64,000 nucleotides of DNA from Actinomycetota bacterium (lineage in GTDB: Bacteria > Actinomycetota > Geothermincolia > Geothermincolales > RBG-13-55-18). Location: assembly GCA_028697145.1 (NCBI GenBank), contig JAQVFR010000015.1, positions 1 through 64,000 on the forward strand, read 5' to 3'. The notes under the pieces were generated by a model. The model made no database searches, was not told the origin of the DNA, and worked only from the letters and a program-made list of their open reading frames with translations. Numbering within the stretch: the first letter of the stretch is position 1; every line of letters starts with the position of its first letter. This document shows, in pieces, positions 33,609-38,502 of this stretch. Position numbers and translations under genes: made by a program.

Positions 33609-34295
33609 CGCGCCTGTTCCCTCCTTCTCAGTCAAAAAACCCATACCAGGTTCACGGCGGTATGGGCCTTCTCAGGACCTATAAAAGCGACGGTTCCCGG
33701 CCCCTGGCCTTAACCCGGCGCTTACGCACTCGACTCGCATAAGCCTAGCATACGTTCAATCCCCTGCCAAATAAAGAGGTCGGGTCGCGCCTTCCGCGCG
33801 CAAGGACGTCCCGATGGCGCCGAGGCGGCGGAACATGCAAGAGACGAGACCTGGCCCCCTTGCGAAAAGAAGGCTTCGAGACCCGGCTGACCTGGTCTTT
33901 TACCCCACACTCGCCTGCTGAGCGGCTCGCAGTGGGCGGGATCCCTCGCGGGCCATCGCCGCCCCCCACTAATACGCTTCTCCAGCTTATCTGCCGGGCA
34001 GGTCTTACCCCTAAGCCGCACTATGCTCACCAACCAAGAGTTGGCTTACGTGGGTCGTTTCGCCTGCGGCTGGCATCGACTTTCAACCACAGACCCGGGC
34101 CGAAGCCTTCATCTTTCATTATAGACCATTCCCCCTCTCAACCCCGCCCGAAAGGCGCCCCCCCTCTCGCCGCCTGTTCGCGGAACGGATGGGGACCGCG
34201 CGCGGCGCGCTCGGTGGAGGAGCGGCGGGCGTCCGCTCGTAGTCGCGGTCCGGGAGCCACGTGCTGGAGGTGAGGACGCCCGCTTGTGGAGCGGC
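33609..34295. other. non-coding stretch between hpf and the FlgM-like gene
   Basis: About 690 nt without a credible gene. It contains the interspersed motif at 33835-33859. In the Bacillus gene order the flagellar hook/filament genes lie in this interval. I see no gene remnants I can name and no clear riboswitch fold. Confidence 0.6.
33835..33859 (+). repeat. short interspersed motif, copy C
   Basis: ATGCAAGAGACGAGACCTGG followed by CCCCC matches copy A at 15358-15383 in most positions. Confidence 0.5.
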
Positions 34296-37595: not shown

Positions 37596-37843
37596 ATGCG
37601 AGCCTCCATAGCCTAATTAACGTGCAGACCTATTATAGCTACCTCCCGGGAAACTTGTGTTCCAACCAGGCTGACCATTCTCCCGGTAGAATGCGAGACC
37701 TGCGTGCCTGTCATCTCCCTTCTTCGCCTCAAGAATAGAGAGTGAGTGGGAGTGGGGATATCCACCGGCCCACTTCCGCCTTGGGGCCTCCAGGCTGGCT
37801 GAGCCTTTCGCCGGCCTTCGCGGCTTCCGGGGGTTGGATTGGG

Positions 37844-37917
37844 TGCCCCCGGCGGGATTCGAACCCGCGACCTCCCCGTGCGCCAGACGGGGGCTCTATC
37901 CGCTGAGCTACGGGGAC
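37844..37917 (-). tRNA. tRNA with GGC anticodon (nominally Ala), atypical body
   Basis: Folds as a class I tRNA: acceptor GTCCCCG/CGGGGGC, D arm GCTC-AGCGGATA-GAGC, anticodon stem CCCGT/ACGGG with loop CTGGCGC (anticodon GGC), T arm GCGGG-TTCGAAT-CCCGC. The alanine identity pair G3-U70 is absent (C3-G70), the D loop with A20 is arginine-like, and six nt instead of five lie between the anticodon and T stems. CCC, not CCA, follows. It is either an unusual tRNA or a decaying one. Confidence 0.75.
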
Positions 37918-37993
37918 TCCCCACTCCTCGTATCGGGTTTCCCCGAAACATGTATATCTTATAACTTATATACGACAATTGAAGATATATTTG

Positions 37994-38002
37994 TGCTATA
38001 AT
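37994..38002 (+). promoter_or_regulatory. extended -10 promoter of the candidate small RNA
   Basis: TGCTATAAT, the same core as the tRNA-Arg promoter of this window, in AT-rich DNA. Initiation is expected near 38008-38010, exactly where the tRNA-half copy begins. Confidence 0.65.
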
Positions 38003-38008
38003 TAAAAA

Positions 38009-38067
38009 GCGCCAGACGGGGGCTCTGAAGAGAGCTACGGGAGAGACGGGAAACCGTCTCTTTTCCT
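38009..38067 (+). ncRNA. candidate small RNA antisense to the 5' half of the adjacent tRNA
   Basis: About 59 nt between a near-consensus promoter and a terminator. Its first 18 nt (GCGCCAGACGGGGGCTCT) repeat 37880-37897 exactly; a diverged 5 nt and then GAGCTACGGG complete a copy of the tRNA D and anticodon arms. The copy has the same orientation as 37880-37897 on the plus strand, so the plus-strand transcript would be complementary to the minus-strand tRNA, with its single-stranded 5' end facing the anticodon loop. This is inference; a dead tRNA fragment is the alternative. Confidence 0.5.
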
Positions 38068-38070
38068 TTT
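38042..38070 (+). terminator. intrinsic terminator of the candidate small RNA
   Basis: The stem AGAGACGG/CCGTCTCT with a GAAA tetraloop is followed by TTTCCTTTT. The T-rich tail is on the plus strand only. Confidence 0.75.
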
Positions 38071-38095: not shown

Positions 38096-38283
38096 CTTGT
38101 GTGGTAGGTGGTTCATGTTCTTCCCCGCGTTGCCCTGGAATGAACCTGGTCTCATCCGGCGGGGATGGCTACGTATCGATACGTTGGGTCTCTAGGTAAT
38201 GGGAATTGGGGCCAGGATAAATCCTGGCCCGCAGCGCTTCGCGTCGCTCAGCTCTGACAGGTGGGTATGGGCTCAGCCTTGTC
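38096..38283 (+). repeat. dispersed ~185-bp repeat, copy 2
   Basis: Aligns with the reverse complement of 15109-15291. The palindrome gggccaggat-N2-atcctggccc is at 38209-38230, followed by CAGCGCTTCGCGTCGCT. The sequence from 38284 to 38502 holds nothing I recognise. Confidence 0.8.
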
Positions 38284-38502
38284 GACCGGTTGTGTAGAGA
38301 GAGGGCGTGCGCATACCATGAGCGGTGCAGCGATAGATTGCCGCCGGGAAACGTGCATATTCAGTGGCCAATAAGGATGAGAACCCGCCCGGGTGTTTCC
38401 CTGCCCTCCAACCTATTTCCCGACTGGCCCGGGGAGCTACCGGGTCGGTCGCAGCGAGGCCTTGCGAGCGAGACCGTTACCCGGAGTCCCCGGGCCACCT
38501 CT

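Follow-up and report, generated by a model that had tools for sequence, protein, structure and literature searches.

In the ColE1 pair RNA I and RNA II, contact between tRNA-like loops starts antisense pairing, and the specificity of the pair can co-change. Because a single DNA stretch encodes both of them, on opposite strands, their matching is automatic. We describe here a locus with a similar pairing scheme, as predicted from sequence, that consists, unlike ColE1, of two separate stretches that must change together. It lies in a 64,000-nt stretch of contig JAQVFR010000015.1 (the window, to which the coordinates refer; genome G000, of an uncultured actinobacterium). Intact copies were found in three genomes only: G000, G001 (JAFGDU010000031.1; same genus as G000) and G009 (JABLXL010000083.1; same family, different genus), the latter two from public Actinomycetota MAG records.

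In arrangement, we find the locus closest to the divergent type I toxin-antitoxin loci (ZorO-OrzO, ShoB-OhsC, TisAB-IstR). In these, as predicted here, a divergent small RNA adjoins its target and is complementary to it over 18-21 nt, which in OrzO lie at the very 5' end (PMC3919570). For OrzO, whose gene diverges from zorO, the first 18 nt are enough for repression and specificity is set by a variable stretch (PMC3919570). Whereas the target in these loci is an mRNA encoding a small hydrophobic protein, the target here would be a tRNA-shaped RNA with no conserved reading frame, and three-frame translations point to no small toxic protein.

In RNA-only pairs such as CreTA (type VIII), both partners are RNAs, as they would be in our locus, and translation would be the likely target here too. 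CreT toxins sequester rare tRNAs and CreA acts through a CRISPR effector (PMC8501985); we found no such CRISPR link for our locus in G000, G001 or G009. Bacillus cereus tRNA-Other (PMC3399842) resembles it: this RNA too is tRNA-shaped and neighbours mobile DNA, and its role is not in translation. The part of that paper drawn on here gives its anticodon as Trp and describes neither an antisense partner nor a conserved leader or trailer. Neither Rfam nor the open-access papers searched yielded a separately encoded, co-varying antisense RNA that serves a single tRNA or tRNA-like partner, and our literature searches, which covered open-access publications, found no described counterpart. Besides tRNA, no Rfam family matched the locus at its gathering score (YrlA, 15.5 bits versus 69).

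A candidate small RNA gene facing a tRNA-like gene

We consider it probable that the locus encodes a dedicated antisense small RNA that pairs with a tRNA-like RNA (Table 1). The original prediction, made from the letters of the window, had described an 18-nt exact repeat of 37880-37897 starting about 7 nt after a promoter core, followed by a second copied stretch and a GAAA-tetraloop terminator, next to a tRNA on the minus strand. Sequence comparison recovered every one of these elements, and ARAGORN and Rfam agreed on the tRNA call, with anticodon GGC. As the promoter core ends at 38002, the predicted start lies 7 nt past it.

Table 1 Features of the locus in window coordinates
Feature	Position	Strand	Basis or comparison
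Candidate antisense small RNA gene	38009..38070	+	Predicted +1 at 38009, end at terminator; unit also in G001 and G009
Guide, 18 nt	38009..38026	+	Complementary to tRNA-like positions 21-38
Small hairpin GCTCT-GAAG-AGAGC with second stretch GAGCTACGGG	38022..38041	+	Second stretch lost in G009
Second copied stretch GAGCTACGGG	38032..38041	+	Follows the guide after GAAGA
Terminator-like hairpin AGAGACGG-GAAA-CCGTCTCT with T-rich tail	38042..38070	+	Kept in three genomes
Extended -10 TGCTATAAT of small RNA	37994..38002	+	TGNTAWAAT in all three genomes
GACA, 19 nt upstream of TATAAT	37974..37977	+	Spacing kept in all three genomes
Predicted -10 TAAGAT of tRNA-like gene	37956..37961	-	Same register: TAGAAT in G001, TAAGAT in G009
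Predicted start of tRNA-like gene	near 37949	-	
Leader hairpin CGGG-GAAA-CCCG	37933..37946	-	In three genomes; changes keep pairs
GGAGTGGGGA, directly 5' of tRNA-like domain	37918..37927	-	Invariant in three genomes
tRNA-like domain, called tRNA-Ala(GGC)	37842..37917	-	ARAGORN and Rfam (56.8 bits)
Trailer: CACCCAATCCAACCC, irregular hairpin, GGATATCCCCACTCCCAC	37746..37845	-	Five copies in four genomes
TCCCCACTCC, end of trailer	37749..37758	-	Can pair with GGAGTGGGGA

A generic promoter and terminator scan flagged neither signal for the small RNA gene, so both calls rest on their conservation in G001 and G009. In all three genomes the extended -10 is followed by six bases, after which the copied stretch opens the predicted RNA. 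The guide covers the 3' strand of the D stem, the 5' strand of the anticodon stem and the anticodon loop of the tRNA-like RNA. The second copied stretch matches the acceptor/D-stem region of the tRNA; it is lost in G009, where the guide is retained. Read in the tRNA sense, the copy is CCCGTAGCTC-TCTTC-AGAGCCCCCGTCTGGCGC and the tRNA CCCGTAGCTC-AGCGGAT-AGAGCCCCCGTCTGGCGC, the D-loop being the sole difference.

The 18-nt exact match between tRNA and copy is beyond chance. The 18-mer occurs at only these two places in the genome, and the next match has two mismatches. For 87 distinct tRNAs and their flanks of up to 600 bp, the longest tRNA-to-flank matches are typically 6-9 nt. The few others of at least 15 nt all involve 3' parts, none copying the 5'/anticodon half, and we read them as shared with neighbouring tRNAs or att-like. 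An 18-nt direct copy of the 3' part of a tRNA-Arg(TCT) lies about 150 bp downstream of it in G029 (C258) and resembles an ordinary integration-site duplication.

Distribution and apparent mobility

Among 59 genomes searched, matches extending beyond the tRNA core were found in G001 (73% over 223/234 bases) and G009 (86% over 139). The comparison also covered about 400 genomes of the phylum (BLAST, a 25-nt pattern with three mismatches allowed, and a covariance model; the three-mismatch pattern matches were not inspected individually) and, by pattern, viral contigs and GTDB r220. Only G000, G001, G005 and G009, all of one family, gave clear copies, and the tRNA-like gene is missing from 11 of the 15 genomes of that family. 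The GTDB r220 scan with the trailer pattern returned 23 records, of which G001 and G009 only were true as judged by tRNA context. Pattern scans of viral contigs gave no match, or matches without the element. A phage or plasmid origin was considered and set aside, since the listed matches span the tRNA core alone and the annotated ones are mostly tRNA-Arg; as far as seen, the module does not sit on a plasmid.

The loci are not syntenic among the three genomes. From the ORFs, we take the neighbours to be AHCY and mtnA in G000, a predicted lipoprotein and an FAD-dependent oxidoreductase in G001, and other genes in G009. The AHCY-mtnA gap measures about 910 bp in G000 versus roughly 10-340 bp in most relatives. 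The element is more similar between G000 and G009, from different genera (85% identity), than between the congeneric G000 and G001 (76%), the opposite of AHCY (86% and 93%, respectively). The flank at 38107-38500 contains repeats present dozens of times in G000 and its relatives. These dispersed repeats lie at 38107-38281 and 38427-38496 (54 flank matches in G000), and the second (about 70 nt) occurs in abundance in G007 as well.

Additional copies were also seen. In G005 (C4, 1403-1575, minus strand), the tRNA-like part and trailer are present with a replaced leader and imperfect stems, and keeping the anticodon stem shortens its loop to six bases. No copy of at least 12 nt of the tRNA-like 5' half was found within 16 kb there, and neither was the antisense gene; we regard it as a decayed copy lacking that gene, and count this loss of leader and stem pairing in favour of the dedicated pairing elsewhere. 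The second copy in G009 (C82, 155-294) is truncated to the T-arm and trailer, broken in the anticodon arm and joined to an unrelated reading frame. No mobilizing enzyme was identified for the module. Because of the lack of synteny, the wider AHCY-mtnA gap, the discordant identities, the flanking repeats and the extra or decayed copies, the two-RNA module is apparently mobile.

The tRNA-like RNA and its predicted larger transcript

The cloverleaf of the tRNA-like domain is complete according to ARAGORN and Rfam, with a normal D-loop, T-loop and 7-nt anticodon loop (CTGGCGC). It has C3:G70, and A73 is followed by CCC, CCA not being encoded. The domain appears to be embedded in a larger conserved transcript. 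Its trailer of about 100 nt, which shares its first bases with the end of the tRNA call, opens with the invariant CACCCAATCCAACCC; five pairs of its predicted fold are maintained despite changes on both sides, and CCAATCCAACCC within it is invariant and probably unpaired. Since the cloverleaf and the leader/trailer pairing did not emerge jointly from a consensus fold of the whole RNA, the overall shape is our own reading. A small toxin ORF in the minus-strand RNA was rejected, as three-frame translations are not conserved and frames shift between genomes, and no protein gene accompanies the module across genomes.

G3:U70 is the main alanine identity element. All three genuine tRNA-Ala genes of the genome (anticodons GGC, TGC and CGC) have G3:U70, and CCA is encoded in every extracted tRNA of this genome except the tRNA-like domain. 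C3:G70 replaces the identity pair in all four genomes, G000, G001, G009 and G005. Because a genuine tRNA-Ala(GGC) is present, making the domain redundant, because G3:U70 and CCA are absent and because the domain belongs to a larger conserved RNA, it is probably neither an ordinary translating tRNA-Ala nor charged with alanine.

We nevertheless weighed whether it could be a supernumerary functional tRNA that is matured, charged and used, the small RNA setting its level. Since the gene does encode CC of the CCA end, maturation of the 3' end would still be possible, and the normal loops and the two tRNA calls also fit. Against the missing identity pair and CCA, the redundancy, the stem mismatches in G001 and G005 and the absence from most of the family, we find this unlikely. 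In G001 the acceptor and anticodon stems have one mismatch each, and this copy may therefore be decaying. The original idea of a dedicated tRNA-targeting RNA thus stands in part: we still favour a dedicated small RNA with its 5' end opposite the anticodon loop, and the target is revised from an ordinary cellular tRNA to, probably, a CCA-less tRNA-shaped RNA within a larger conserved transcript, the two genes together forming one apparently mobile module.

Complementarity co-varies across three genomes

The same layout with co-varying changes in related genomes, proposed at the outset as a check, is found in G000, G001 and G009: a divergent promoter, copy and terminator face the tRNA-like gene at unrelated loci. 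The predicted +1 of the small RNA lies an identical 92 bp from the tRNA 5' end, and the complementary stretch sits at that +1 in each. Only 2-3 of 6 bases match between genomes on each side of the anticodon stem (positions 26-31 and 39-44); in the variable/T-arm/3'-acceptor segment, 31-32 of 32 match. The stem changes are paired, for instance CCCGU/ACGGG at 27-31/39-43 in G000 and GCGCU/AGCGC in G009.

Aligned from the D stem outwards, the G000 copy agrees with its tRNA-like partner in 17 of 17 positions, the G001 copy differs at position 28 and at the outermost base (of 20), and the G009 copy differs at position 26 and at one G-U-compatible position. By copy identity, 18, 19 and 18 bases would pair in G000, G001 and G009, plus one wobble in G009. 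With few exceptions, the match of the small RNA appears to have been kept in three species while the sequence of the arm changed. Own pairs have predicted duplex energies of -45.3, -43.9 and -40.9 kcal/mol (same order), and cross-pairs, G005 included, of -21.8 to -29.8 kcal/mol. Pairing of the guide with ordinary G000 tRNAs is predicted to be at the background level of shuffled guides (best tRNA, -24.8 kcal/mol; shuffled mean, -22.9). A formal co-variation test has little power with three genomes, so the argument rests on the size of this energy gap. The layout, the co-varying complementarity, the redundancy with tRNA-Ala(GGC) and the changed genomic position all come from such comparison of sequences.

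Among the points that count against our reading are the small number of intact copies (three), the guide's one mismatch in G001 and its one mismatch and one wobble in G009, the encoded CC and the stem mismatches of G001; gene conversion between direct repeats could likewise keep the copies alike. The latter is part of another explanation, in which a non-functional partial copy of the tRNA gene, left by integration or rearrangement, is kept similar by conversion. It would fit the direct repeat, the dispersed repeats around the module and the truncated second copy in G009. However, promoter and terminator flank the copy at fixed spacing in three genomes; the D-loop difference persists in all of them, and conversion would need to halt at the guide. 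The G001 guide, moreover, is suited to a U at tRNA position 28, a base that could pair with A42 as well, and is thus no fresh copy of today's tRNA. The part of a tRNA normally duplicated by integration is the 3' part, and here it is the 5' part. We rate this explanation as quite improbable. For a scar of a lost integrating element or an att site, an alternative offered originally, free decay would be expected; the layout recurs at unrelated loci in two other Actinomycetota genomes with promoter, spacing, guide, terminator and co-variation kept, and we do not retain it.

Pairing works in both directions, so the tRNA-like RNA could instead be a sponge or sensor and the small RNA an effector with other targets, the invariant CCAATCCAACCC perhaps binding something else. 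This is very doubtful, as G000 contains no second close match to the guide and the changes in the guide track those of the tRNA-like RNA instead of a constant target.

Proposed mechanism

For the favoured reading, a small RNA dedicated to the tRNA-like RNA, we infer transcription of both RNAs, silencing, degradation and toxicity as follows. The minus-strand gene would produce an RNA of roughly 200 nt with a complete, CCA-less tRNA fold, around which leader and trailer can pair. The plus-strand gene would produce an RNA of roughly 60 nt whose 5' end is the guide. In all three guides the first nine bases include CGCCA, which matches the conserved loop sequence UGGCG; this suggests first contact at the anticodon loop. 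Strand invasion would then proceed down the 5' side of the anticodon stem and into the D stem, destroying the tRNA fold, and the duplex would be degraded, probably by RNase III. The small RNA would in this way keep its partner silent. Unopposed, the tRNA-like RNA could be harmful, perhaps as an uncharged or mischarged tRNA competing at GCC/GCU codons.

Addiction would be the likeliest reason for retaining such a pair on a movable element, although we propose an addiction function only tentatively. The module may, with the same reserve, be an RNA-only one: the toxin a tRNA-shaped RNA, the antitoxin antisense to its anticodon arm, and the stem diversifying such that modules of other species are not neutralized. 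A CreTA-like scheme, with the small RNA guiding a CRISPR effector to an RNA toxin gene, shares the combination of RNA toxin and RNA guide (PMC8501985) and Cas1 is present in G000 and G009, but we reject it as hardly credible because no Cas1 was found in G001 (92% complete) although the whole module is there, the CRISPR repeats of G000 and G009 are unrelated (at most 7 nt shared with the module), and complementarity begins at the predicted +1, which leaves no 5' handle for the effector.

If the dedicated pairing is right, one half of a mobile RNA pair, the regulated and perhaps harmful one, can have a tRNA fold, and some 'extra' annotated tRNAs without identity elements or CCA should be examined for an antisense gene opposite them. 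The co-changing guides would also constitute a natural series of orthogonal RNA pairs.

Two further observations concern the same genomes. CRISPR arrays lie beside cas1 in G000 (C24, 1-12000; 12 repeat copies seen) and in G009 (C34, 78000-95000; 66 seen). Elsewhere in the window, Rfam places a raiA RNA motif at 33878-34103 on the minus strand (165.8 bits).
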